Shown here: one piece after another, positions 987-29,767 of the stretch
How the letters are laid out: each line of letters opens with the position of its first letter
Position numbering within the stretch: the first letter of the stretch is position 1
Assembly (NCBI GenBank): GCA_024277195.1
Contig: JAJRVS010000177.1
Coordinates: 1 to 32,250 of the forward strand
Source of the DNA: Verrucomicrobiota bacterium
Lineage (GTDB): Bacteria; Verrucomicrobiota; Verrucomicrobiia; Verrucomicrobiales; DEV007
DNA: 32,250 bases
Direction of reading: 5' to 3'
Position numbers and translations under genes: made by a program
The notes under the pieces: model-generated
What the model was told of the DNA's origin: nothing
Seen by the model: the letters and a program-made list of their open reading frames with translations, nothing else
The model's database searches: none

Positions 987-1011
987 CGGTGCATGCGGTA
1001 AGAAATGTAAC

Positions 1012-1206
1012 CACTGATGACACTGATTAGCACTGATAAGAAGGAGGAATTTACATGGATGAAGAGGATGGGCAGGATGAAGAAGGGGGGATCGAGAGGT
1101 AGGAGGGGTAACCGCAGATGTCGCAACCGGAGTGAAGCGGTGATAGTCGGAGGAAGTTGCCCGAAGGTAAATGGTATTATTCCCTCTCGTCACTGATTGA
1201 TTAGCA
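1012..1206. repeat. Degenerate short tandem repeats between genes
   Basis: Three near-identical 9-10 base units beginning CACTGAT lie head to tail at 1012-1040. Three 9-base units of the form GGATGAAGA / GGATGGGCA follow at 1057-1083. A further related CACTGATTGATTAGCA stretch is at 1192-1206. This is the whole 233-bp space between the fumarase and vapC-like stops. From memory, similar CAGAT/CACTGAT and GGAT-rich degenerate repeats are common between genes in Verrucomicrobiota and other large environmental genomes. I see no gene here. Confidence 0.55.
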
Positions 1207-1220
1207 GGTTCTTGTTGGGA

Positions 1221-1655
1221 TCATTTGTAGTTGATGATTTCAAAAACTCCCAAAACTTTATAGTCACGACCGTTGTTAGTGATGATTTTCGTGACCTTTG
1301 CATTGCGGAAGGTGGCAGCTAAAAGGGTGTCCAGTAGCCGTTTGCGTCCGAGTTGATGCTGTCGCAACCACGCGAAAAAATCTGTGACCCCGTGGCCGTC
1401 AGGAAAAATACGTATAACCTCCTTTGAGTGCCACCACAACTCGGAGCGTGTGATCGCGTCGGTCATCGCCAAGGGGGCGGGCATTCTACGGGCATCCGTA
1501 ACGATGTGGATAAACTCCGCAAGCGTCTGTGGAGTCAGAGCGAAGTTGTGATCCTCGGCGAGCAATGTTTGCAACAGGGCATCTGCCTGCTTGTGGAAAG
1601 GGTGATCTACGATTTCAATCGCCACAAGGAAGTCTGTATCAATTCCGTAAGTCAT
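1221..1655 (-). CDS. PIN-domain toxin, VapC-like
   Basis: A 144-residue PIN-domain protein, the expected size for VapC toxins, which are Mg-dependent ribonucleases that usually cut tRNA or rRNA. Visible acidic residues fit the PIN active site: D6 in the opening YGIDTDFLV, E48 in TLAEFIHIV, D109 in RLLDTLLAAT, and D131 in TNNGRDYKVLG. The gene starts three bases after the stop of the ribbon-helix-helix antitoxin gene, the standard antitoxin-first order, so the two are almost surely co-transcribed. The usual Asn after the first DT motif is Asp here (DTD), a mild variation. Function is inferred from family and pairing. Confidence 0.85.
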   Translation of the reverse strand: MTYGIDTDFLVAIEIVDHPFHKQADALLQTLLAEDHNFALTPQTLAEFIHIVTDARRMPAPLAMTDAITRSELWWHSKEVIRIFPDGHGVTDFFAWLRQHQLGRKRLLDTLLAATFRNAKVTKIITNNGRDYKVLGVFEIINYK

Positions 1656-1658
1656 GGT

Positions 1659-1898
1659 TCAATCAGTATCGGACAACATTTCACCAAGCAGATCGTCATC
1701 GGCAGTGATGGCTTCAATCGGTCCACCAACAGAGGTGGGTTTGCGATTATGGAGACTGGTTTGACGCTGTATGTGCTGTTGACGATATTCTTCCATCGCT
1801 TCGCGGATTAACTCGGAAGTTTTGCGATCCCGTTTCAATGCATAGGATTGAAATTCCTCGTATACTGGGGTAGATACATTGACTGTAATGGTCTTCAT
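1659..1898 (-). CDS. Ribbon-helix-helix antitoxin, VapB/CopG-like
   Basis: A 79-residue protein. The N-terminus MKTITVNVSTPVYEEFQSYA followed by KRDRKTSELIREAMEEY is a typical ribbon-helix-helix DNA-binding fold (one beta strand, then two helices). The acidic C-terminus (ADDDLLGEMLSDTD) would wrap and block the toxin. It should bind its own promoter as a dimer and neutralise the PIN toxin encoded immediately downstream. No clear Shine-Dalgarno precedes the ATG. A 22-bp near-perfect palindrome overlaps the start codon and is the likely operator. Confidence 0.82.
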   Translation of the reverse strand: MKTITVNVSTPVYEEFQSYALKRDRKTSELIREAMEEYRQQHIQRQTSLHNRKPTSVGGPIEAITADDDLLGEMLSDTD

Positions 1899-1917
1899 GC
1901 ATTAAATTTAATGTATG
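1896..1917. promoter_or_regulatory. Palindrome over the antitoxin start codon, probable operator
   Basis: The perfect 14-base palindrome CATTAAATTTAATG sits at 1900-1913. It extends outward to 22 bases (1896-1917) with only one mismatched pair. It overlaps the antitoxin ATG (1898-1896 on the minus strand). Ribbon-helix-helix antitoxins typically repress their own operon through such palindromes. The operator role is inferred from position and symmetry. Confidence 0.55.
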
Positions 1918-2149
1918 CTAAGGCTTACTGCAAGAGTGAATCTATGTATCACCGAGAAACAAAGTCATGGGCGTTTGCCAGAGGGTGTGCCGGAAGTTGG
2001 CTTGGTTTGATGGATTCGATCATTTTCTAGGTGATCTAGCAGGTGATTTAATTTAAACTTGTGACATTGTTATCGATTGAGAGTAGCCAGTTACGGAGCA
2101 TTGGGAGGTGAGAGTTATTTGCTTTCATGATTCAAATAGGAACAAAAAA

Positions 2150-5100
2150 ATGAGCAGGCGCATACAGGGGGAAACTATCGGTCAAAATGAATCTCGGTGC
2201 AGCCGTCTCCGAGGTCTAATAGACCGCTACCCTGAAGATTCTGGTATTTTGAAAGAACTGATTCAGAATGCAGACGATGGTCAGGCAAAAGAGATCAAGA
2301 TCATTCTCGATAGCTTCTCATATAAACCATCGTCCGGCCCTGCAGAATCATTAGGGCAAATCTGTGGGCCTGCAGTAATCGCCTGGAACGACAAACCCTT
2401 TGAAGAGCGAGATTTCGAAAATCTTTCAAGACTTGCTAATAGTTCTAAAATTGAAGACGCCTTTAAAACAGGCAGGTTTGGTCTTGGTTTCAATTCGGTT
2501 TATAACATCACAGATTATCCGGTTTTGCTATCAGGAACTAGATTGTGGTGCCTCGACCCTTGTGAAACGCTTTTAAAAAATCGAGAAGGTGGTGAACGTT
2601 GGGAACTGGAGGATTTGATTGAAAAACAAGCAGATGGATTTTTGAATTTATTCGAATCCGTTGGTTACTCTGGAGGTGATTCCGAATTTCCCTTCACAGC
2701 TTTCAGATTGCCCCTTAGAACGAAGGAGCATGCTGAGACTAATAAAGATCCTGAGCGCGCGGGCAATTCTCTCATATCATCTAAAACTTTTGGAGAAGAA
2801 GATTTCGACAGCCTTGTCGCAGGGCTTTCAGCAATTGCCCATGAGCTTTTACTTTTCCTGAAAAATATTGAGTCAATTACCTGTTCTCAGAGAGGTTCTG
2901 ACGGAAAAATTAAGCATCTTCTTGAAATCCGAATCAAGAATCCGGAAGTAGTTCGAGCTGGGCGAGAAGCCTTAAATACAAAACTGCGCGATGGTTTGGA
3001 AGTATCTATCGAAGCTTGCAAAAAATCGAGTGGGCACAAAGTCGAGACTTCATTCCAAGCCCAGATTGAGGTTATTACAAATGGGAATTGTAAAGAATTT
3101 TCATCATGGCAGATTGTTTCAGGTCTTTACGCTGGAGAAGGAAACATACTGATAGAAGCGTCTCAACGAATTCATAGACTTGGGGAAAGAGGGCTGCCAC
3201 ATGCGGGCGTTGCCGTCTGTCTTGAAAAGGACGGTGAATTATTACCAAAAATAGATAGCAAGTTATTTTGCTATCTGCCAGTGGCGGGAAGTGAATACTC
3301 AGATAATTTTCCTGTGCATATTCATGGAGCATTCAGCTTGGATGATTCTCGAACTACATTGAGTGGACACCGTGACGATGAACATGGAAAAGGGGCTGCG
3401 CTCGCAGAGTGGAATGACTTGTTGCTTGAGCATGGAGTGGCTCAAGCCTATGCAAGCGCGGTTCATAAAATTATCACGTCGTCCGAAAAAAATGAAGACC
3501 AGTTTGAGCTGGCAAGTTCAATATTTCGTATATTTCCTTCCTTAGAAAAAGAGTGGGGGGCTCACCATCGGATTCTGGCAATAGCCGCGCTTCAAACGCT
3601 GGCGGGAACTCCTATTTTTCTTGATGCGACACAACAATGGAAGAAGCTTGATGATTTACTTGAGCCTCCGACTGACTCTGATTTGAGGGAGAGCCTTATT
3701 AAAGAGGCCTTCCCAATTCCGAACCCGCAGTTGCCTTCACGGATTGTAAAAGACTTTAAAAAAGCAGATATCAATCATCCTCTGTTATCGAGTAATGACA
3801 TCTTGCAGCACTTCAAACTGGAGATGGATGGTGCATGGTTTCTTGCCGAGGTGCCTTTCCCCGGACTTCGCACTGAAGCTGAAGTTAAGGCGGTGACACG
3901 ATTTCTAGTGAAGGAGCAAGAGTTTGACTGGTCTCATTTACCACTAGCCCTATGTTGCGATGAAAAACTGCGGACATTCCCTGAGGAGAGTGGCGCCCCG
4001 CTTTTTATTGGATCTGAGAGGCAGAGAGATGTGTATCGTGAATTTCCTAAATGGTTCTTAACTCCAGACTTTGTAGAGGCATGTGGGTTATCAAGGCTTT
4101 CCTCAAAGTGCTTTCATTCGATGGGAATTGAAGATTTTCTTGGGGGACTTGGACGGATAATCTCTTGTCCTAATTCGGAAACCGCTAATTGGGACCCCAA
4201 AGCGGAAAGTCCTCCTAATGCAGTTTGGCTTGTGACGGTGTTGGAGGAGATCAATAGCTATGATAATGAAAAAAAAGAGTTTGAAGCGACTTTAAAGAAA
4301 GCTGCAATTATACCTGGTGATGACGGGTGTTTGCATTTTCCTGGTCCGTTCTCAAGCCCTCTTCAGGTAAACCCAGCTGAGGCTAAACTTAGCGAGATAT
4401 TCGAGCAGCTGGACATTCGCTATTGGGTCCTGATTACTAATGATCCATTGACGAAACCTCTAAAAGTTTTCCGAGATAAATACGAGTATATCTACCCCCT
4501 TACCCCAGCTGATTTATTGGATAGCTTGGGTGAGAAAAAAGATAGTTTGCTATCGTCAGTAGAAAACTGGCAGACGAAAGATGTTGTGAATCGGTTGTTA
4601 GGTTTCCTGAGTGAAGGAATAGAAAATGAGAGCTTCACTGAAGCGCGTATTAAAATCCTCCAAGGCCTCCCACTTTTTCTAGATGCATCAGGAAAATTTG
4701 GACCAATCGATGAGAATACTTATTTAACGGGATCTTTTGATATCCCTAAAGTATCTATGCCAGCTCGCCTGCTTTCCGGCGAAGATCACATTGGACTCTT
4801 AAAGAAGTTAGGGGTAACAGAGCTCACTAGGCGCAAATTGCTCGAAAAATGTGTGGTCCCATTTTTCGAAGGTTTTTCAGATTCTGCGCTTGTAGGTGTG
4901 ATGGAATGGGTGCGTTATGAGTGGAGTCGCCTTGTTGATGACTATGGAAATGAATCGGATCTTAAGGGCGTGTTCAAATTAGCGAAATGCATTATATCCG
5001 AGGATGGTAAGCGACGGTCACCTCAGAAGCTTTATCACCCTGAAGTGAGAGAGGTAGTGGAAAAAGTTCTCGGCAAAAACGCCCACTTCCCAAACACTTT

Positions 5101-7870
5101 AGCTTACGCTGAAAAGAAAGAGTGGAACAAACTTTTCACGAACCTTGACTTGGCGATGTTGCCTTTGGCTCAAGATCTCGTCAACTTTATTGAAAATACG
5201 ATCGAGCAAATTGAGGTAGATGGAGATATCAATGCTGAGCAAGAGTCATCATTGTTTGCAGTGCTAAAAAGTATTCAGGAAAAATGGGAAAAACTTGAAG
5301 ATAAAGATGTGATTATGCGGTCTGGTCAAGACTGCAAATTTCACGAGTTTTTATCAGATGTTAGATGGATCGTGCCAGCTAGAGTTGAGGGCGATGAGAG
5401 CAAATACTTGTCTTGGATCGATCCAGAAAAACGATTATACCAACCTCGTGAACTCCTGCATATCAAGCAGGCTTTTCGTGCCGCGTCGATTCGTTGTTTT
5501 TTGCCTAGGGGAATCAATAGGTTCTCTTCCCCTGCTCAGAAAAAACTAGGAATGGAACGTATCCCTAGCCCACAGAATATTTGTGCTCACTTACAAAAAG
5601 TTGTCGCTCACCTTGGTGAAGGCCCTTTTGAGGAAGATCAGATTGAAAATATTAAAGAAAATCTAGGTGCAATTTATCGAGGGCTTGGAGAGCACTACAA
5701 AATAACGAATGGTAATGAAGACGAACGGGAGCATCTTGAATCAACCTGCAAAACCTTGCGCAATACCCCCTGTATTTTTGTTACTTCTGAAAAACGCTTT
5801 CGCTGCCCTCGTGATGTATATCGCAGTGAATCAGCCAAACTCAGCCCTTTAAAGTCGGTCTATTTCACTAAAGATGAGCAGGTAGAGGTTGGTTTAAAAC
5901 TTCTCGGTCGCTTAGAAAAACCCACAATCACCGATTTAGCAGAAAGCCTTGTCGATCTCTCAGAAAATCAGGAAGAGCCCATTAATGAGGAATTACTTCT
6001 CGCTACGGTAGCTAGCCTCAAAGAGATACGCAGGCTGGTTGATGAGAAAGAAGAACGACCGGACACTGATATTGATATCAGAGTTCCAAATGCTAGTGGG
6101 TTTCTGGTTAAACACAACGAAGTGTTTTTCGATAATGACCCTGTATTGTCGAGACAACTTAAACCAAGTTTAGATCAAGTTCTTTACAATCAAGCTCCCT
6201 TTCACATTCATGATATTTACAAAACAGTAAGATTGTCAGAAGCAAAAGCAAAGCCTACCGGAACATTGCCAAACTCGGCTCATTCTGAATTTACCCAAAA
6301 ATGCAGCAATCTTGAAAAGGTAATTCGCAATTTATTTTTTTCTGAGGGTATATGCCGGATTTTTAAGAATGAAGGGAGGGAACCTCAATTAGCAGATTTC
6401 AGATGGCTTCAAAAGGTAACCGTGGAACCCTACGAATCGCTATATTGCAATTTTACTATTGAATTAGGAAGTGGATCGTTAGATCTGGGGGATGCAGTCG
6501 TCGATGTCGCATACGACAAGAGTAAAGGGGGTGGAGGGGCTTTCTTAGTTAGCGAGGCCTCCGGATCATTGCTGTATGAGCAATTTGCTCAAGAGTTAGC
6601 AAGAACTCTAGATAATCCATTGAAAGATAAGGTTCCACTAGTCGCTATTCTTGGAATTGATCCTAGTGAAATACATGACATCCTAGATCGTCTAAGCATC
6701 AGCTCTCTAGGAGAACCCATGGATAATGACGATGAGGAAACAATCGAGCCGGTAGCTGACTCATTGCCAGAAGAAGAGGAAATGGATGGGATTGAGTCGT
6801 CTGAAGGTGATCAAGAAAAAAAATCCTCTCATGAAAAATCGGAAGGTGGAGAAGGTGGAGAAGGTGGAGAAGGTGGAGATATAGACAAGGGCAAAACAGC
6901 AGTTAATAAGAAGGGTGACGGCAGAACGCCAGGAAATGTTGAAACCAGCAGTGGGCACGTCTCAGGTTCAAACGTCAATGGAGAAAAGGAGCAGCAAACG
7001 AAGCAAGGTGCTGGAGAGGCCTCATCTGATAGTGAAGAAGGAAATTGCGATAATAACAATGAGAATAGCTCACAAGAAGAAGAACTCCATGGTAAGCGTA
7101 AGCGCATGCTCAAAGGCGTGAGGGATAAAGATAACAAAAACAAAAAAACTAACGATAAACGAAAATCGGATTCAAAAAATGGTCAAAAAGACCTTTTGAT
7201 TTCTCGACCTCAAACTCCCAAGCAAACTAAGGAATCAAAGCAGAAAAATGAGACAAGTGATGAGGGAGGACGTCTTAGTCATTTGATTGGAGACGCTGCA
7301 GTTGGTTGGGTGCTTCAATACGAACGACGGGAAGGTCGGAAACCTACTAATATGGCTCAGGGAAACCCTGGCTATGATATTGAATCATGCAAAGGTCAAG
7401 TTGTTGAGCGATTTATAGAGGTGAAGGGAATTAATTGTGAGTGGGGTAGGAACGGAGTCTCTCTATCAGATTTGCAATTTTTTAAATTTCAAGGTCTGGT
7501 TGATGAGGGTAATCCTGAAGGTGCCAAAATAGGAGATAAATTCTGGCTCTACGTGGTCGAGAATGCGCTAGAACCTGAAAAGGTCAAAATCCACATGATA
7601 CAGAATCCATCAGCCAGAACTACTCAGTTTCGGTTTGATCATGGATGGAAGGAGGCCGGTGAAGAGGCAAGTGAGTTTAACGCGCTAACCCCGAGAACGG
7701 GCTTAATCATTTATATTGATGATGACAAAGGAGGTCAAGACGAAGGGGTTATTCAATCTGTAGATCCCAGCGGCGACACGACTTATCTTGATGTTTCTTT
7801 CGAAGGACGACCAGGTGCTTCTGTTGTTTACGATTCCACGTATATGCATTTGGAAGTGGTCGAGGAATGA
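2150..7870 (+). CDS. Giant sacsin-like GHKL ATPase fused to DUF3883/PD-(D/E)XK nuclease-like domain
   Basis: A protein of about 1906 residues, much larger than its neighbours. Residues about 15-125 match the sacsin/NOV type of GHKL (Hsp90-like) ATPase: the N-box helix ILKELIQNADDG (E36, N40, D43), the AWNDKPF strand, and the glycine-rich lid GRFGLGFNSVYNITD (from about residue 108). Residues about 365-405 (LFCYLPV, then FPVHIHGAFSLDDSRTTLSG) match the second half of a sacsin repeat. A long middle part is unrecognised. Residues about 1540-1715 form a charged, Gly/Glu/Lys/Ser-rich linker. The C-terminus resembles DUF3883, with GYDIE (D1743) and FIEVKG (E1757, K1759) forming a PD-(D/E)XK signature. 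The ATG at 2150 has AGGA eight bases upstream; an in-frame GTG at 2108 is the alternative. The gene is visibly more AT-rich than its surroundings. A defence role is inferred. Confidence 0.85.
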   Translation: MSRRIQGETIGQNESRCSRLRGLIDRYPEDSGILKELIQNADDGQAKEIKIILDSFSYKPSSGPAESLGQICGPAVIAWNDKPFEERDFENLSRLANSSKIEDAFKTGRFGLGFNSVYNITDYPVLLSGTRLWCLDPCETLLKNREGGERWELEDLIEKQADGFLNLFESVGYSGGDSEFPFTAFRLPLRTKEHAETNKDPERAGNSLISSKTFGEEDFDSLVAGLSAIAHELLLFLKNIESITCSQRGSDGKIKHLLEIRIKNPEVVRAGREALNTKLRDGLEVSIEACKKSSGHKVETSFQAQIEVITNGNCKEFSSWQIVSGLYAGEGNILIEASQRIHRLGERGLPHAGVAVCLEKDGELLPKIDSKLFCYLPVAGSEYSDNFPVHIHGAFSLDDSRTTLSGHRDDEHGKGAALAEWNDLLLEHGVAQAYASAVHKIITSSEKNEDQFELASSIFRIFPSLEKEWGAHHRILAIAALQTLAGTPIFLDATQQWKKLDDLLEPPTDSDLRESLIKEAFPIPNPQLPSRIVKDFKKADINHPLLSSNDILQHFKLEMDGAWFLAEVPFPGLRTEAEVKAVTRFLVKEQEFDWSHLPLALCCDEKLRTFPEESGAPLFIGSERQRDVYREFPKWFLTPDFVEACGLSRLSSKCFHSMGIEDFLGGLGRIISCPNSETANWDPKAESPPNAVWLVTVLEEINSYDNEKKEFEATLKKAAIIPGDDGCLHFPGPFSSPLQVNPAEAKLSEIFEQLDIRYWVLITNDPLTKPLKVFRDKYEYIYPLTPADLLDSLGEKKDSLLSSVENWQTKDVVNRLLGFLSEGIENESFTEARIKILQGLPLFLDASGKFGPIDENTYLTGSFDIPKVSMPARLLSGEDHIGLLKKLGVTELTRRKLLEKCVVPFFEGFSDSALVGVMEWVRYEWSRLVDDYGNESDLKGVFKLAKCIISEDGKRRSPQKLYHPEVREVVEKVLGKNAHFPNTLAYAEKKEWNKLFTNLDLAMLPLAQDLVNFIENTIEQIEVDGDINAEQESSLFAVLKSIQEKWEKLEDKDVIMRSGQDCKFHEFLSDVRWIVPARVEGDESKYLSWIDPEKRLYQPRELLHIKQAFRAASIRCFLPRGINRFSSPAQKKLGMERIPSPQNICAHLQKVVAHLGEGPFEEDQIENIKENLGAIYRGLGEHYKITNGNEDEREHLESTCKTLRNTPCIFVTSEKRFRCPRDVYRSESAKLSPLKSVYFTKDEQVEVGLKLLGRLEKPTITDLAESLVDLSENQEEPINEELLLATVASLKEIRRLVDEKEERPDTDIDIRVPNASGFLVKHNEVFFDNDPVLSRQLKPSLDQVLYNQAPFHIHDIYKTVRLSEAKAKPTGTLPNSAHSEFTQKCSNLEKVIRNLFFSEGICRIFKNEGREPQLADFRWLQKVTVEPYESLYCNFTIELGSGSLDLGDAVVDVAYDKSKGGGGAFLVSEASGSLLYEQFAQELARTLDNPLKDKVPLVAILGIDPSEIHDILDRLSISSLGEPMDNDDEETIEPVADSLPEEEEMDGIESSEGDQEKKSSHEKSEGGEGGEGGEGGDIDKGKTAVNKKGDGRTPGNVETSSGHVSGSNVNGEKEQQTKQGAGEASSDSEEGNCDNNNENSSQEEELHGKRKRMLKGVRDKDNKNKKTNDKRKSDSKNGQKDLLISRPQTPKQTKESKQKNETSDEGGRLSHLIGDAAVGWVLQYERREGRKPTNMAQGNPGYDIESCKGQVVERFIEVKGINCEWGRNGVSLSDLQFFKFQGLVDEGNPEGAKIGDKFWLYVVENALEPEKVKIHMIQNPSARTTQFRFDHGWKEAGEEASEFNALTPRTGLIIYIDDDKGGQDEGVIQSVDPSGDTTYLDVSFEGRPGASVVYDSTYMHLEVVEE
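6845..6880 (+). repeat. Four tandem 9-bp units inside the linker of the giant ATPase gene
   Basis: Three exact copies of GGTGGAGAA and a fourth ending in T encode Gly-Gly-Glu repeats at about residues 1566-1577. The unit length is a multiple of three, so copy-number change would alter linker length without breaking the frame. Confidence 0.9.
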
Positions 7871-8087
7871 ATGGCGCGGTTGTCGTGATTCGATGAAGTA
7901 TGAGGTTTTTGGAAGTTTGCTATAGTAGAGGATGCTGTTGATTTACTTAGGGCGAATTTCCAGCGCGAATCAAGCTTGTTGAAAGATTGGTGGTGCAGTA
8001 CGGGAGTTCAAGTTCTTAATTGATCCAAATCTGCAAATGGACAGGTGCTTTCACTGAAATGGGCAAAGAGCAAAGAGTGGGAGCATA
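7871..8087. other. Spacer between convergent genes, holding one copy of a dispersed repeat
   Basis: No gene is supported here. Bases 7972-7995 contain AAGCTTG followed by the 17-base string TTGAAAGATTGGTGGTG. The same string recurs exactly at 23335-23351, also just after AAGCTTG. No clear terminator hairpin was seen between the two convergent genes. Confidence 0.5.
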
Positions 8088-9149
8088 TTACTTTTTCCTC
8101 CACCGCTCGGTGAGCACATCCCAGCTGGGGTCTTTTACCGGGCTTGGCATTTCTTGGAGGTGTTCTTGTTGTTCGACGATGTTTTCGAACAGGTCAGCGA
8201 TGGCTTCGCCCATTTCCCACAGGGTGTGACGGAAGTTGGCTTGATCGGCGGCGGCGATCATTTCCTGGTAAGCGAGGCCGCCGGTTTTGGCGCTGAGTTC
8301 CGCACTGCATTTGAGTTGGCCTTTGCTGTCCTTGGTAAGAGCGAGATCTTTGATGATGCCAGAAGTTCGAGTGGCTTCGAATTGGCGGTTTTTGGTGAGC
8401 ACGATTTGTAGCAGCTTGTTTTTGTCTGGATCCCATCCGTCGGGGAAGTGGGCGCCGAGGCGTCCGCCTTTTTTGACACAGCGCATGTAGTGAGCTTGGA
8501 TCGGTTCAACCGGGGTATGAGCCAGATCGTGTAGTAGCGAAGCCCAGTCGAGCCCTAGTTCTTTGACGCCTATTTCGTGAAAGGTAACCAGATCCTGGAT
8601 CGGGCGGTTTTTGGCGGTGTATTGACCATCGAGCAAGTGTAGGTGCAGGCCGGGGTGGACGGATTTGATCAGGCTGTCACCGATCACGTGGGTGGCCCAA
8701 CCAAAAATGTAAGCCAGTTGGCGTCGCCCGGGGCCAAAGAGTTCGATGGCGTCACCGACAACCGAAGCGATGTATTCAGGGATGTCATCCCAGGCGATGG
8801 CATGGCGTTTGTCTTCGCCCCGCCAGCCAAATACGATATGGGCACGGCCGTAAAATAAAGTGTGGATGTCTCGGGGGCGGTAGGATTTGCCATCGAGCTC
8901 AATTTTCCAGGGACGAACGGGGCCGCCGGTGAGAGGGCTTTTTTCGACGGGTACCGTTCCATAACCGACTTCCTGTCCAGTGTCGATACAGATCGCCTCG
9001 GGCAGGGTTTGGATGTCGGAGCCCAGATAGGAACCTGCCAGGTAAGAGGCGAAGTTCTGTTGGATGATCGGAGCGATCGGAAGCTGGCGCTGGGCAGCTG
9101 CTTTGGCCGCCAGCATGGCGTAGGTGGTGTGTCCGATGAGGCCACTCAT
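8088..9149 (-). CDS. Probable zinc-dependent phospholipase C-like protein
   Basis: A 353-residue protein with no obvious signal peptide. Histidine- and aspartate-containing segments are laid out as in the zinc-dependent phospholipase C family: GHTTYAML at the N-terminus (H7), SYLAGSYLGSDI, then GRAHIVFGW, IFGWATHVIGDSLIKSVHPG and LVTFHEIGVKELG. I recognise the family by pattern only. The ATG at 9149 overlaps the TGA of the upstream hydrolase gene (ATGA, 9146-9149), so it is probably translationally coupled as the last gene of a three-gene unit. The same frame stays open further upstream, but that part only shadows the hydrolase gene. Substrate unknown. Confidence 0.62.
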   Translation of the reverse strand: MSGLIGHTTYAMLAAKAAAQRQLPIAPIIQQNFASYLAGSYLGSDIQTLPEAICIDTGQEVGYGTVPVEKSPLTGGPVRPWKIELDGKSYRPRDIHTLFYGRAHIVFGWRGEDKRHAIAWDDIPEYIASVVGDAIELFGPGRRQLAYIFGWATHVIGDSLIKSVHPGLHLHLLDGQYTAKNRPIQDLVTFHEIGVKELGLDWASLLHDLAHTPVEPIQAHYMRCVKKGGRLGAHFPDGWDPDKNKLLQIVLTKNRQFEATRTSGIIKDLALTKDSKGQLKCSAELSAKTGGLAYQEMIAAADQANFRHTLWEMGEAIADLFENIVEQQEHLQEMPSPVKDPSWDVLTERWRKK

Positions 9150-10804
9150 TTCACTGTGATCACGGGTGCGATGATGTGGGAGGCACGATTTTTTTCGTGA
9201 TGAATGCTGTTGGTCGCGGTGACGGGATTGGCGGGATACTCGATGGTCTGTGGTCCGCCGGTTTGCGGGTTGGGTTCGTAGAGCGGGGCTCCGGTGCTGG
9301 CGATGGTGATGCGGATACGGTGCCCCTTGTTGAAAATGATACTGGTGCGTCCGATGTCGTAAGCCACTTTGACAGGTTCGCCGGGTTTCATTAGAACCTG
9401 TTGATCGAAGCCGTCGCGGTAGCGCAAGCGGCGGGGGTAGTCCATGATTAACATCGAACGTCCGTCGGGGTAAACATCGCTGATCCGGACGATGACGTCG
9501 GTGTCCTTGGCACTGGAGGAAAACCACAGCACCACTTTGACCAGGCCGGTCCATTCCGTTGCCGACTTCAGAACTTCAGAGGTGAAAGTGCGCACTTCTT
9601 TTTGCTGTTCGAATTTACGTGCGTCACGCGCGCCGGGAAAACCGCGGCCGGGGATCTGCATCGGGTGCAGTGGGTCGCTTTGGTAATCGGTGGTGGATTT
9701 TTCCGCGGTGGGCAGCTTGGTATTGAGTTTGCCTTCGGCGTGCAGGTAATAAGGGGTTTGGTTGCTTGCCGGTGGCCAGTCGTTGGTCTCTCTCCACAGG
9801 TTGCCTTTGGCATTGGCTTCTCCTGCCGCTCCGATGACATAATAACGAACGGCGGGATCTTTTTCGATGCCGTTGTCGACGCCTTTCAGGTAGTGGTCAA
9901 ACCAGCGGGTCATGTGGTCTTTTTCCGGCCAAGTGGCGTTCTCTGGAAAGGTGAGTTCGGCGGTTTTGTTATTTTTATTCAGACGGCCGTGCAGCCAGGG
10001 GCCGAGTAGGAGTTGTTGCTGCCCTTTGGACTTGGCACCGCCACGGTATTGCCTGCCTTGAAAGCTCATCACCGATCCTTGGTTCATAAAATCATACCAA
10101 GAGCCGATGGTGAAACAGGGCACGTTCATTTTGTCAAAATGCAGCGAGCAATCTTCGTCTTTCCAGTAGTTATCGTAGTTCGGGTGACTGAACCATTCTT
10201 TCATCAGCTTTTGATTGTCGGCGGGATCACGGCAGACTTTGTCCATGCCTTTGAAACGGCCAGGGCGGGTGACTCCGCCGATGCGGTAACCTTCCTGGAA
10301 CAGGCTGAGGCCGGTGTCCACCATGTATTGGCAGACCAGATGGGGTGGTGCGGATACCGCGAGGAAATTCTGGGCAAAACCACCCTGAGAACTGCCGAAG
10401 GTGCCGATTTTGCCAGTGCACCATTTTTGTTTGGCGAGCCATTCGCAGGTGTCGTAGCCATCTTGCAGCTCGCCCCAAGCCAAGGCGCGGTAGCCGACCC
10501 ATTGGCCTTCGGATTTTTGCGCTCCGCGGAAGTTGACGATCGCTACGACATAACCTTTGGCGGCTTGTTCGGCGGAATTGAGTTTGGTGCGTTTGCCTTC
10601 AATGGAGGCGTAGCGTTGTTCGAAAATGGCAGGCCAGGGACCGTCGCCTTTGGGGAAGTAGAGCCAGGCGGAGAGGTGTTTGCCGTCCCGCATCGGGATC
10701 ATGATGTGTTCTTCACGAACGTCACCAAGGTCGAGAGTTTTGTCCTGGGCGTGGGTCAGGCTGGTGGCTGTTAGGCAGAGTAGGGCGGAGAGGAGGAATT
10801 TCAT
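9146..10804 (-). CDS. Secreted CocE/NonD-family alpha/beta hydrolase
   Basis: About 552 residues. A Sec signal peptide (MKFLLSALLCLTATSLTHA) is followed by an alpha/beta hydrolase of the CocE/X-prolyl dipeptidyl-peptidase type. Visible features are IPMRDGKHLSAWLYFP, the oxyanion-side VNFRGAQKSEG, and the nucleophile elbow GTFGSSQGGFAQN (the Ser before QGG, about residue 139). A C-terminal jelly-roll-like PepX_C part includes DTDVIVRISDVYPDGRSMLI and GHRIRITIAS. Members hydrolyse esters or amides such as cocaine, glutaryl-7-ACA or acyl-prolyl bonds; the substrate here is unknown. The ATG at 10804 overlaps the upstream lipoprotein stop (ATGA), which favours it over the ATG three codons earlier. 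The product is likely periplasmic or exported. Confidence 0.87.
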   Translation of the reverse strand: MKFLLSALLCLTATSLTHAQDKTLDLGDVREEHIMIPMRDGKHLSAWLYFPKGDGPWPAIFEQRYASIEGKRTKLNSAEQAAKGYVVAIVNFRGAQKSEGQWVGYRALAWGELQDGYDTCEWLAKQKWCTGKIGTFGSSQGGFAQNFLAVSAPPHLVCQYMVDTGLSLFQEGYRIGGVTRPGRFKGMDKVCRDPADNQKLMKEWFSHPNYDNYWKDEDCSLHFDKMNVPCFTIGSWYDFMNQGSVMSFQGRQYRGGAKSKGQQQLLLGPWLHGRLNKNNKTAELTFPENATWPEKDHMTRWFDHYLKGVDNGIEKDPAVRYYVIGAAGEANAKGNLWRETNDWPPASNQTPYYLHAEGKLNTKLPTAEKSTTDYQSDPLHPMQIPGRGFPGARDARKFEQQKEVRTFTSEVLKSATEWTGLVKVVLWFSSSAKDTDVIVRISDVYPDGRSMLIMDYPRRLRYRDGFDQQVLMKPGEPVKVAYDIGRTSIIFNKGHRIRITIASTGAPLYEPNPQTGGPQTIEYPANPVTATNSIHHEKNRASHIIAPVITVK

Positions 10805-11406
10805 GGGGGGCATGAAGCTTGAAGGAGGAAGTTTGAAAGGTGAAAAATGAGTGAGCGGCGCATGGCGCGGGTGCGGGGGGTGAGAGGGGGGAAGGTGTTG
10901 GCCCAGTAGCGTTCCCAGGGTTCGAAGACGTAACCGGGTTTGGCGTCGATTTGTTCAAAACGGGAGAGTTTGAACTCGGGCAGCATCAAGTTGGAATTGG
11001 GATCGTAAATGGTGTCACCGGTGAAGTGCCCCCAGAGTTGGTATTGGTAGTTGTGGTCAAAGCCGTTGGAATTGCCTGAGCCTCCGGCTTCGGGCAAGCG
11101 GTCGGGGGCGAGCTTTTGGGTTTCGTTGAGCATCACCAGCTTGGCTTGTGACCAAGGTTGGTGGGGGCGGCGCACGTAACCCCAGAAGCGGGTGCCTTTG
11201 GTGTACCAGCGGCGCCCGACCCAGAAGTCACCGCTTGCTTCCGTGGCGATGCGGGATTCGCGTTCCAGTCGGGCGATGCGGATCTGGTCTTCGCTCATCC
11301 GGCGACGACCAGAGCTGGTGCCGGTCGAAGTGGTGACACAGGAAGTCAGGGTGCTGGCGGCAAGTGCCAGCGCAATGAGCATGGGAATGTGGATCGATAT
11401 TTTCAA
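10801..11406 (-). CDS. Putative lipoprotein of unknown function
   Basis: With a TTG start at 11406 the product is about 201 residues. It opens with a lipoprotein signal: MKIS, a hydrophobic run, then LTSC with the lipidated Cys at about residue 23. An ATG at 11382 is a shorter alternative, and the frame stays open up to 11520. The body (GDFWVGRRWYTKGTRFWGYVRRPHQPW, YQYQLWGHFTGDTIYDPNSN, FEQIDAKPGYVFEPWERYW) is rich in aromatic residues and matches no family I know. The last 15 or so codons run through a dispersed intergenic repeat, so the C-terminus may be a late extension. It is the first gene of a three-gene minus-strand unit. A weak promoter (TTGCCG, 18 bases, TATTAC) lies at 11450-11421. 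Confidence 0.62.
   Translation of the reverse strand: MKISIHIPMLIALALAASTLTSCVTTSTGTSSGRRRMSEDQIRIARLERESRIATEASGDFWVGRRWYTKGTRFWGYVRRPHQPWSQAKLVMLNETQKLAPDRLPEAGGSGNSNGFDHNYQYQLWGHFTGDTIYDPNSNLMLPEFKLSRFEQIDAKPGYVFEPWERYWANTFPPLTPRTRAMRRSLIFHLSNFLLQASCPP
10813..10845. repeat. Copy of the AAGCTTGAA...TTTGAAAG dispersed repeat
   Basis: GAAGCTTGAA is followed by an 8-base insertion (GGAGGAAG) and TTTGAAAGGTGAAAAATG. The copy at 23322-23351 has the same elements without the insertion, and a shorter relative is at 7972-7995. This copy overlaps the 3' end of the lipoprotein gene. Confidence 0.5.
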
Positions 11407-11542
11407 AGTGATCTTTTTGAGTAATAAGCGCGATGAACGGCAATCGGCAAGTCTAATGATGGGGCGAATGGATCGTTGTGCCCATGATCTGGGGCGAACA
11501 AGCTGAAAATTGCCAGGCATTTAGAAATCGGGGGGATCGGGC

Positions 11543-11571
11543 TTGACGATAGAAATATCCCGTGCTCTAAT
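11543..11571 (+). promoter_or_regulatory. Near-consensus sigma-70-type promoter
   Basis: TTGACG at 11543-11548 (five of six consensus), a 17-base spacer, and TCTAAT at 11566-11571 (five of six). It lies between divergent genes and points at the downstream membrane-protein pair. It also shows that the longest open frame, which would start with this TTG, is not the true start of that gene. Confidence 0.6.
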
Positions 11572-11656
11572 CAGCGGAAATGAACCGGATTCACCCTTTC
11601 TCCCCTTTGACCCCTTCCAGCCTTGGTTGGGCAGTGGTACCTCCTTCGCCGAGGCT

Positions 11657-12265
11657 ATGGCGGGCGAAAGGGCAGGGCAGGTGAAAAAGCAAATTCCCAG
11701 CAGTAGCAGCGATCAACTCAGTGCGACTTCGTCTGAGGCGCGGGCTTTTTCCTCCAGTGAAAAAAAAGGCAGGTGGGCGTGGTTTCATACACTCCGGCGT
11801 CACCCGATTTTTCCAGTGCTGGTTTTCATTCTGGCTTCGAAGATAATTGGTGAATTTTATCCGATTTCGCCGTTTTCGATGTATTCAAACCCAACGAGCC
11901 GACCTCTTCGTTACTGCTATGTCGCTGATGGTTCAGGCAAGGCTATTCCTATTCATTTTCATACCAGCATTTCTCCGTCACGTATCACAAAGATGCAGCG
12001 ACACAACCGTACGGAAGTTGAAGAAGCTCGAGAATTGGTAATGAAGAAGGGGGAAGTTGATACGCCTTTGACTGATGCTGAAATCCGCCGGCAGGCGGGT
12101 CTCATTGTGTTGAATTATCTGGTGGATCGCTCGGTGAAAAAAAAGAAGGAGGAAAAACTTCTCACCGGAAAAGATCTCCAGTTGGTTGAAGTTGCGATCA
12201 GCGTTGAGGATGGGAAACTGATTGAAACCCCGGTTGTTGTAGCCGAATTGCCCGCATCAAAATAA
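11657..12265 (+). CDS. Single-span membrane protein of unknown function
   Basis: About 202 residues from the ATG at 11657. I chose this start because an upstream TTG in the same frame is part of a promoter. A Ser-rich N-terminal tail precedes one membrane segment (FPVLVFILASKIIGEF). A soluble domain of about 135 residues follows (PFSMYSNPTSRPLRYCYVAD, then a basic KKKKEE patch) and would lie outside the membrane. The sequence matches no family I recognise. It ends eight bases before the next gene, a polytopic membrane protein, so the two probably work together in the envelope. Confidence 0.6.
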   Translation: MAGERAGQVKKQIPSSSSDQLSATSSEARAFSSSEKKGRWAWFHTLRRHPIFPVLVFILASKIIGEFYPISPFSMYSNPTSRPLRYCYVADGSGKAIPIHFHTSISPSRITKMQRHNRTEVEEARELVMKKGEVDTPLTDAEIRRQAGLIVLNYLVDRSVKKKKEEKLLTGKDLQLVEVAISVEDGKLIETPVVVAELPASK

Positions 12266-12273
12266 GCAGTTTT

Positions 12274-13254
12274 ATGAGTGATTCTAGCCCAGTTGAGAGC
12301 CGATTTAAAAAGGGGAAAGTATGGCTTTTTGATTGGTTGAAAGTGGGTTTTGTGCCTGGACGGGTATTGAATTGGGAGTGGTTGTTGATGCGGATTTTTT
12401 TTTCAGGCATCATCATTCGCCATCTCTTTGATGCAGATCCATTCCGTTATGACTCGCAGCCTTCACCTAACGGGGTGGCAAAAATCATCGACTTGTCATG
12501 GATGGGTGAGGATTGGGTGCATCCGTTGTTTAAAATATTAACGATTTTCTGCGTTCTTCTGTATGTGTTTGGCAGGGGTTATGTGATCGCTTTGCCATTG
12601 CTCGCAGTGATGAGCACCTTGGCCGGAACCATTGAGAATTCACAGGGCGCATTCAAGCATTCCCACAATCTCATAACTCAGGTTCTTATTATCCAGGCGA
12701 TAGTGGCTGTCTGGCCCTGGGTGCATCGCGTTCGCCAGGGCAAGGCATTAGCTCTTGCTGAAAAACTGAGCATGGCCAGTTACTATTTGTATTACACGCA
12801 GGCGATGATTGCAGGCTCCTATGTCATAGCGGCTTTGAGCAAGTTTCTCAATTCGAAGGGACTGTGGGTTTGGAATTCACCTTACATAGCTCTGGATCTG
12901 GTGAAAAGTCAGCGCCAGGCCTATTACCGGTATATCGATGATCCTTCACTGGTGGAAAGTGCGCTGGCGGCTGAATGGGTGGTGAATCATCCGTGGTTTT
13001 CACGCATGGGCTTTGGCGGGGCTTTTTTTCTCGAAGCGTTCGCTCTCATTGCCCTTAAAAACAGGCCGTGGGCTTTTTTTATAGGGCTTAGCCTAATAGC
13101 TATGCATCGAGGCATCTTTTATCTGATGCACCTTCATTTTGGCTACAATGAGCTTATATTATTGATCTTTTTCTGTAACCTTCCGTATTGGATGTGGCGC
13201 TTGGGAAATAAACCCAGTGGCTTGCAGCCTTTAAGATGGCAGGCCGCGCAGTGA
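12274..13254 (+). CDS. Polytopic integral membrane protein (HTTM-like)
   Basis: A 326-residue protein with about six to seven hydrophobic segments, including ILTIFCVLLYVFGRGYVIALPLL, NLITQVLIIQAIVAVWPWV, YYLYYTQAMIAGSYVIAAL, AFFIGLSLIAMH and LILLIFFCNLPYWMW. Overall topology and residues such as H-rich MHRGIFYLMHLHFGYNE resemble HTTM/vitamin-K-dependent-carboxylase-like membrane proteins, but I cannot confirm this by eye. It starts eight bases after the preceding gene and should share its promoter at 11543. Function unknown. Confidence 0.68.
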   Translation: MSDSSPVESRFKKGKVWLFDWLKVGFVPGRVLNWEWLLMRIFFSGIIIRHLFDADPFRYDSQPSPNGVAKIIDLSWMGEDWVHPLFKILTIFCVLLYVFGRGYVIALPLLAVMSTLAGTIENSQGAFKHSHNLITQVLIIQAIVAVWPWVHRVRQGKALALAEKLSMASYYLYYTQAMIAGSYVIAALSKFLNSKGLWVWNSPYIALDLVKSQRQAYYRYIDDPSLVESALAAEWVVNHPWFSRMGFGGAFFLEAFALIALKNRPWAFFIGLSLIAMHRGIFYLMHLHFGYNELILLIFFCNLPYWMWRLGNKPSGLQPLRWQAAQ

Positions 13255-28868: not shown

Positions 28869-29121
28869 ATGGCGCGCACCCCAAAACCAAACGCTTCCGC
28901 TGAACTCGAACCACGCCGCCGCCGCTGTGGGCAGTTACGGTGAGAGGTTCAGCCCGGGCTACCTAGGCAGCTGGATCAAGCGCGCGTTGAGGAGCGTGGG
29001 CATCGAGCGAGAGGGGAGTTGCCATTTGTTGCGCCACACACATGCTGGAGAACGGGCGCACATAAGGTTTATCCAGCAGTTGCTCGGCCATGCCAGGGGC
29101 GACACCATCAGCATCTACTAG
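28869..29121 (+). pseudogene. Remnant of a tyrosine recombinase/integrase
   Basis: The frame at 28927-29121 encodes the catalytic end of a phage/Xer-type integrase: YLGSWIKRALRSVGIEREGSCHLLRHTHA with the HxxR motif, then IRFIQQLLGHARGDTISIY ending at the catalytic tyrosine. The core domain and first arginine are missing. In the THAGERAHIRF stretch the neighbouring frame reads MLENG, so small compensating indels have hit it. A stub from ATG 28869 (MARTPKPNASAELEPRRRR) may be the N-terminus of the same or another deleted gene. Confidence 0.7.
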
Positions 29122-29210
29122 GTGGGCATCCTACAGTTGAGGGCGGTACATGCGAAATGAACGACAAAAATGAATTGGAAAGGGTAGGGACAGTGGGTTA
29201 CACTGGACGC

Positions 29211-29474
29211 ATGACGATCACCCATCAAACGCTACTCGACGAGGAAGGGAAACCTACTGCGGCGGTCATCCCGTGGGACGAGTTCCGGGTGATCAGAGCG
29301 GAGCTTGAGGAAGTGGAAGGCGCCCCGCTTAGCCCGGAGTGGAAGGCTGAACTGGATCGTCGGATGCAGGGAATCAAAGACGGCACCACCAAGGGGATTC
29401 CCCATGACGAGGTCATGGATAATGTCAGGGGGCGTCTCGCCCAACTTCGCAAGGAAGCAAAACAGGGCGCATGA
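29211..29474 (+). CDS. Antitoxin of a RelE/ParE-type toxin-antitoxin pair
   Basis: About 87 residues from ATG 29211; ATG 29157 is an in-frame alternative adding 18 residues. The N-terminal part (THQTLLDEEGKPTAAVIPWDEFRVIRAEL) looks like the Phd/YefM-style DNA-binding antitoxin fold. The C-terminal part (SPEWKAELDRRMQGIKDGTTKGIPHDEVM) resembles the addiction-module component that wraps the toxin. Its stop overlaps the toxin start by four bases (ATGA, 29471-29474), the usual antitoxin-first coupling. The identification rests on pairing and pattern. Confidence 0.78.
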   Translation: MTITHQTLLDEEGKPTAAVIPWDEFRVIRAELEEVEGAPLSPEWKAELDRRMQGIKDGTTKGIPHDEVMDNVRGRLAQLRKEAKQGA

Positions 29475-29767
29475 ATTTAAGGTGGGACGATGAGGCTGAG
29501 CTTGAATTTTCCGAGGCCGCTGTTTATTATTATTTTGGAGAGCCGGGACTGGATGAACACTTTATCCGGAGCGTGGAGGAGGCCGTGGAAACTATCGTGC
29601 AAGACCCGTTGCGGGCGAGGGAGTTTGACGGGCGCTATCGCAAGCTCAATACGGAGATATTCCCCTACCAGGTGATCTATGCAATTGTAGATGACACCCT
29701 ATGGATAGTGGCTGTGATGCATCAAAGCCGGAAGCCGGGATATTGGAAAGGGCGGTTGAAAGACTGA
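29471..29767 (+). CDS. RelE/ParE-family toxin
   Basis: 98 residues, the normal size for this superfamily. It opens with LRWDDEAELEFSEAAVYY and ends with FPYQVIYAIVDDTLWIVAVMHQSRKPGYWKGRL, the family's strand pair with conserved Arg and aromatic residues (REFDGRYRKLN, HQSRKPGYW). RelE members cut mRNA on the ribosome, whereas ParE members poison gyrase; this sequence does not decide between them. It is translationally coupled to its antitoxin and lies just after an integrase remnant. Confidence 0.85.
   Translation: MNLRWDDEAELEFSEAAVYYYFGEPGLDEHFIRSVEEAVETIVQDPLRAREFDGRYRKLNTEIFPYQVIYAIVDDTLWIVAVMHQSRKPGYWKGRLKD

Follow-up and report, generated by a model that had tools for sequence, protein, structure and literature searches.

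The 32,250-nucleotide stretch of verrucomicrobial DNA analysed here (the window) contains one long gene that poses a simple question: is it, as an initial annotation proposed, an undescribed one-gene defence system in which a sacsin-like ATPase is fused to a PD-(D/E)XK nuclease-like domain, or does it belong to a family already named? The window comes from a genome assembly of 5.49 Mb in 422 contigs. The reading frame is intact, with no internal stop codons, and its ATG start (Table 1) is preferred to the alternative in-frame GTG at 2108 because the N-terminus of the closest homologue, a protein from the Chthoniobacteraceae (L041), aligns at the same place. A Pfam search of the whole protein placed two families, and no others, above cut-off: SACS (PF25794) near the N-terminus and NOV_C (PF13020), the former DUF3883, near the C-terminus. 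The motifs originally quoted are correct in the numbering of the 1906-residue protein (E36, N40 and D43; GRFGLGF; FPVHIHGAFSLDDSR, residues 387-401; GYDIE with D1743; E1757 and K1759), and they are not chance matches, since 14 to 29 relatives keep them with little or no variation. The gene is also AT-rich, as had been noted, with a GC content of 0.433 compared with 0.516 in the rest of the window once the variable segment described below is set aside, and a third-position GC content of 0.37 against 0.56-0.57 for two neighbouring genes.

Table 1. Coordinates of the features discussed, in the window and in the loci of relatives
Feature	Sequence	Coordinates	Strand	Remarks
tmtA-like gene	window	2150..7870	+	1906 aa, ATG start; predicted divergent Tiamat-type SACS...NOV_C protein
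Predicted SACS / sacsin SR1-type GHKL (Bergerat) ATPase, residues 13-262	window	2186..2935	+	E36, N40, D43, G108xxGxG113; PF25794 E 1.2e-55
Hsp90-middle/transducer-like domain, residues 263-460	window	2936..3529	+	candidate R401 in FPVHIHGAFSLDDSR; two-domain structural matches
Predicted divergent tandem repeats of ~120 residues, residues 470-1420	window	3557..6409	+	hhalign, unit against body
Charged low-complexity linker, residues ~1530-1700	window	6737..7249	+	visible in sequence
NOV_C / DUF3883 domain, predicted PD-(D/E)XK nuclease fold, residues 1704-1823	window	7259..7618	+	E1725, D1743, E1757-V-K1759, Q1776; PF13020 E 1.1e-8
Putative Tudor/SH3-like domain of PcrA/UvrD type, residues 1847-1906	window	7688..7867	+	Foldseek, VIA
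Variable segment	window	990..8087	.	7,098 bp here; 431 bp in congener G002; 2,461 bp with unrelated gene in congener G001
VapC-like PIN toxin gene	window	1221..1655	-	TIGR00028 59 bits, below 73.6 cut-off; acquired with or beside tmtA
79-aa small ORF upstream of vapC	window	1659..1898	-	likely VapB-type antitoxin, by position and sequence style
NERD-UvrD gene after tmtA-like gene	L046	14334-16124		~510-600 aa (this and the ten rows below)
NERD-UvrD gene	L049	13583-15367		
NERD-UvrD gene	L050	5954-7696		
NERD-UvrD gene	L051	13655-15367		
NERD-UvrD gene	L055	13701-15419		
NERD-UvrD gene	L056	13625-15169		
NERD-UvrD gene	L057	8524-10239		
NERD-UvrD gene	L059	5138-6874		
NERD-UvrD gene	L062	13608-15341		
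NERD-UvrD gene	L121	12655-14376		
NERD-UvrD gene	L039	9525-11228		
Nuclease-less cyanobacterial member	L042	8821-13632		
Nuclease-less cyanobacterial member	L044	8980-13660		
Nuclease-less cyanobacterial member	L045	6277-10948		
Nuclease-less cyanobacterial member	L047	6433-11589		

The N-terminal domain is predicted to adopt the Bergerat fold and carries the E-N-D and GxxGxG motifs of a GHKL ATPase of the sacsin type. This part of the initial annotation was borne out by the Pfam match and by human sacsin SR1, a solved domain, which aligns with residues 19-257 at 129 bits. An AlphaFold2 model of residues 1-1190, built from 15 sequences, had a mean pLDDT of 70, with most blocks between residues 30 and 500 above that value. 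Sacsin SR1 superposes on the ATPase domain of this model with a VIA Z score of 22.3 and an rmsd of 2.4 over 233 residues, at approximately 31% identity. The residues E36, N40, D43 and G108-x-x-G-x-G113 are kept in all or nearly all relatives and match the ATP-pocket residues of Hsp90 and sacsin (PMC9880540). The ATPase fold and these pocket residues are what the protein has in common with sacsin; it differs in having one ATPase rather than three and a nuclease-fold C-terminus, and Pfam finds no DnaJ, HEPN or ubiquitin-like domain in it.

The two-domain GHKL ATPases Hsp90, Topo VI-B, MutL, GyrB and MORC superpose on a longer region, from residue 13 to about residue 460, with VIA Z scores of 10-12. 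This refines what had been called a second sacsin-like block: the sequence is real, and the region that holds it corresponds to the Hsp90-middle or transducer part of such enzymes. The block ends in R401, which is invariant in 14 of 14 sequences. A catalytic-arginine role has been described for Arg380 of Hsp90 and Arg474 of sacsin (PMC9880540), and by analogy R401 is a candidate catalytic arginine, the equivalence being suggested by its placement. The resemblance to MORC, MutL and Hsp90 lies in the arrangement of ATPase and transducer over residues 13-460, while the sequence family and everything past residue 460 are different.

The approximately 1100 residues that had been left unassigned appear to consist largely of divergent tandem repeats of about 120 residues each, on the basis of profile self-comparison. 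Repeat units are supported at starts near residues 709, 830, 935, 1062 and 1196, more weakly at 482 and 592, and weakly at 1310. The best in-register non-self hhalign scores were 39-53 per unit, against maxima of 20.7 with column-shuffled bodies and 18.9 with reversed bodies for any unit tested. The unit at 935-1060, for example, matches in register 830-928, 1062-1182, 1196-1277 and 709-779 (scores 42-53), as well as 482-520 at 35, and two N-terminal segments used as queries gave no matches in the repeat body. The AlphaFold2 pLDDT is low at 590-780, and for residues ~500-1190 the Foldseek and VIA matches listed were ATPase matches, giving no fold assignment. Between the repeats and the C-terminal domain, the charged linker originally described can be seen directly in the sequence.

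The NOV_C domain is predicted to have the core alpha-beta-beta-beta-alpha-beta fold of PD-(D/E)XK enzymes with an intact catalytic motif. In an alignment of 29 sequences from two size classes, D1743, E1757 and K1759, which lie in the shared motifs G1741-x-D1743 and E1757-V-K1759, are invariant, and E1725 and Q1776 are nearly so. Residues 1688-1906, modelled with AlphaFold2 (mean pLDDT 83.7), gave VIA-align Z scores of 12.1 with the SPARDA nuclease and 11.1 with the archaeal Hjc resolvase, with other PD-(D/E)XK enzymes lower; NhoI and DpnI are further DNA nucleases near this fold. The Foldseek E-values for the same model are weak (best 2.7e-3), and the case for a nuclease fold therefore draws on the Z scores, the coverage and the motif together. 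The DUF3883-like PD-(D/E)XK end claimed at the outset is in this way corroborated by profile, predicted fold and conserved D1743, E1757 and K1759, structure prediction having returned a restriction-endonuclease-type fold at the C-terminus. What is shared with SPARDA and Hjc is the fold; sequence identity is 9-18%, and the window gene has neither an Argonaute nor a resolvase context. Plant NO VEIN and the DUF3883 helicase fusions likewise share a C-terminal NOV_C domain by Pfam domain assignment, and in the window protein this domain is fused to a sacsin ATPase and repeats rather than to an SNF2 helicase. A term search of the literature found no published link between NO VEIN and DUF3883.

Residues 1847-1906 probably form a separate Tudor domain of the PcrA/UvrD type. 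They match 5dma with a Foldseek TMt of 0.73 and a VIA Z score of 7.7, and 7egs_B with a TMt of 0.65. This assignment is weaker than that of the nuclease fold because small barrels match many things.

Searches with PADLOC profiles place the protein in a named family. It matches the profile PDLC03969 over its whole length (367 bits) and PDLC03965 in one stretch (330 bits; residues 20-1849 against 7-1355 of 1370), and the middle region alone still matches the two TmtA profiles (E 6.8e-37 and 8.5e-37). TmtA is, we take it, the PADLOC gene name for Tiamat. Three plasmid proteins that match PDLC03969 at 642 to 1284 bits, in comparison with the 367 bits of the window protein, have the same SACS...NOV_C order. 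The assignment is defined by profile bits, matched span and domain order, and is separate from PADLOC's own call cut-offs. With Tiamat the window protein shares the whole-length match, an arrangement that runs from the SACS ATPase through a long body to NOV_C, and a single large ORF; it differs in its identity of about 20-23% to three typical TmtA members, than which it is some 300-400 residues longer, and in its phylogenetic position. In a maximum-likelihood tree it pairs with its Chthoniobacteraceae homologue (support 100/100), and these two, one pseudomonadotal and five cyanobacterial proteins form a clade (100/100) apart from typical TmtA. Because the TmtA matches span the whole length and the architecture is the same, yet the scores are low and the clade is its own, the protein is, as judged from profiles and phylogeny, related to Tiamat but divergent and far from its typical members.

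The description 'undescribed' does not hold, since the protein falls in the Tiamat family and the nature of its nuclease-like end had been proposed earlier, a 2013 paper (PMC3710099) having described DUF3883 as 'a novel REase domain'. Reviews credit Tiamat to Millman et al. 2022. What is new is the divergent variant and its domain anatomy. A single-sequence scan of genome contigs and viral contigs for close relatives found none, an alignment query being needed to recover relatives; when 388 genomes of the phylum were searched by a BLAST-type method, three short single-domain matches were obtained besides the window; and phage records gave one weak, short match. PDLC03969 has matches in 31 genomes, most of which cover only its ATPase or its DUF3883 end, and those matches were rejected as evidence of Tiamat.

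The reading that we favour, with a probability of roughly 0.6, is that the gene specifies an anti-phage system of Tiamat (TmtA) type, divergent and made of a single protein, with an ATP-gated nuclease mechanism. As happens in Hsp90, MutL and MORC, the N-terminal domains would form a dimer that closes when ATP binds, and the repeat body would recognise a phage trigger, either a protein or a DNA state. R401 would help to couple trigger recognition to ATP hydrolysis. The closed state would then free or license the tethered nuclease, acting through the linker, and the licensed nuclease would cut either phage DNA or, suicidally, the host's own DNA. Like its counterpart in UvrD, the Tudor domain may tether the nuclease to DNA or to RNA polymerase.

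The relatives bear on which part of the protein does the work. A NERD-UvrD helicase gene lies directly downstream in 10 of 17 long NOV_C relatives and in one plasmid member (L039). As these homologous genes directly follow the tmtA-like genes in those loci, many Tiamats are suggested to be two-gene units with NERD-UvrD. No such gene lies beside the window gene or was found in its genome, the same query being positive in 6 of 15 genomes of relatives. The cyanobacterial members of the clade retain the ATPase and repeats with no recognisable NOV_C domain, for which reason the nuclease may be dispensable or an exchangeable effector; two of them (L044 and L045) encode it in two slightly overlapping ORFs of 1172 (or 1169) and 390 residues. 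Both observations, together with the sacsin/Hsp90 chaperone type of the ATPase, would fit a protein of Tiamat lineage whose working part is the ATPase and repeats, trapping or sensing phage proteins in the manner of a chaperone, with the nuclease-fold end serving as a DNA-binding or auxiliary module rather than as the killing effector. We regard this as unlikely, as the invariance or near-invariance of the PD-(D/E)XK motif residues in sequences of both size classes argues for catalysis.

Other combinations of these domains were also seen. Compact proteins of ~1,060-1,140 residues combine a SACS-like N-terminus with the NOV_C motif and are without most of the repeats (L065, L069, L074, L077, L078, L081, L084, L096, L109 and L113). 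Bacterial proteins of ~2,400-2,590 residues have a sacsin-type N-terminus (L073, L079, L090, L091, L093, L095, L100, L105 and L116), and in L100 and L105 there is a second SACS-like match near residue 1650. An IMG/VR contig classed as viral (L121) contains a full-length tmtA-like gene at 7893-12674 with a NERD-UvrD partner, and on account of this classification Tiamat may travel on phage or sit in prophages.

The closest homologue lies directly downstream of a complete set of NsnA, NsnB and NsnC (E 9e-117, 5e-102 and 6e-66) and upstream of a DpdA gene (E 6e-123) and a HerA-like gene. We take NsnABC to be Menshen. The DUF262 and OLD-type content described elsewhere is consistent with this (PMC10952713). 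The nearest homologue of the window gene is accordingly found in a defence island and not in a conserved housekeeping context. More broadly, at E<=1e-30 the genes around relatives hit 76 PADLOC families, among them restriction-modification of types I and III, SIR2-Argonaute and Gabija-like helicases. As a control, 125 proteins encoded elsewhere in five of these genomes hit 20 families, most of these being one kinase family; the control stretches include BREX-like genes, and profile redundancy inflates the counts on both sides. Proximity to restriction-modification genes and, in the closest relative, to DpdA would also suit a type IV-like restriction factor dependent on DNA modification, in which DNA would be scanned by the ATPase and repeats and, where modified or foreign, be cut directly by the nuclease; the resemblance of the GHKL ATPase to those of MORC and MutL, and of the nuclease fold to those of SPARDA, Hjc, NhoI and DpnI, points the same way. 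Pfam, however, finds no recognised modified-base reader in the protein and no methyltransferase adjoins the gene, and we consider this explanation rather improbable.

The genomic site indicates that the gene is accessory. The same flanking genes are found in two congeners at ~82% DNA identity, separated by a short gap in one (G002) and by an unrelated gene for a 755-residue protein in the other (G001), where the window has the VapBC-like pair and the tmtA-like gene in low-GC DNA. The claim of an adjacent toxin-antitoxin pair stands in outline: the toxin match falls short of the family cut-off, and the small ORF lies upstream of it. No integrase or tRNA was seen. The junction, which follows a class I fumarase gene (window 990-8087; L139 1625-4087; L140 2309-2741), may be an insertion hotspot, because it holds three different contents in three congeners. 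A second toxin-antitoxin pair is present at 29019-29767 of the window, where a gene for a ParE-type toxin (E 1.4e-10) comes after an Unstab_antitox gene (E 5.8e-8).

This variability tells against the suggestion that the protein takes no part in defence and is instead a chaperone for housekeeping or stress, comparable to sacsin or plant NO VEIN. Such a role would be in keeping with the sacsin-type ATPase and with a C-terminal domain named after NO VEIN, but the gene is absent from the 95 other relatives searched, its nearest homologue lies in an island and its TmtA match is whole-length, all of which make the suggestion very improbable. The anti-phage reading has against it that, besides the VapBC-like pair, no other defence genes adjoin the window gene, that the protein falls well short of typical TmtA scores and groups in a clade of its own, and that the NERD-UvrD gene of many long relatives is missing here. 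A defence role is nonetheless supported by context, namely the variable site, the low GC content and the island of the closest homologue, and the combination of sacsin-type ATPase, PD-(D/E)XK fold, variable site and defence-island homologue bears out part of the initial interpretation, in which the gating of cleavage by ATP is an inference.

Tiamat has been catalogued in many genomes as a defence system, its mechanism being listed as unknown (PMC10482375, PMC12926258), and no paper on that mechanism was found in the open-access literature searched. The anatomy described here, in which a predicted ATP clamp with R401 as its candidate catalytic arginine is followed by a body of tandem repeats, a PD-(D/E)XK end whose motif is intact and a probable Tudor tail, offers separate point mutations that can be tested. 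A bolder and doubtful proposal is that the clade of the window protein represents a Tiamat subtype of its own, whose ATP clamp, resembling those of Hsp90 and MutL, would read phage triggers via the ~120-residue repeats and switch on a tethered PD-(D/E)XK nuclease, with a body that could be coupled to other effectors, as in the nuclease-less cyanobacterial forms and those with NERD-UvrD partners, and that eukaryotic sacsin and NO VEIN would descend from this bacterial immune architecture. The sacsin-like ATPase itself ties a bacterial protein with a probable role in defence to a protein of human ataxia that is difficult to investigate biochemically.
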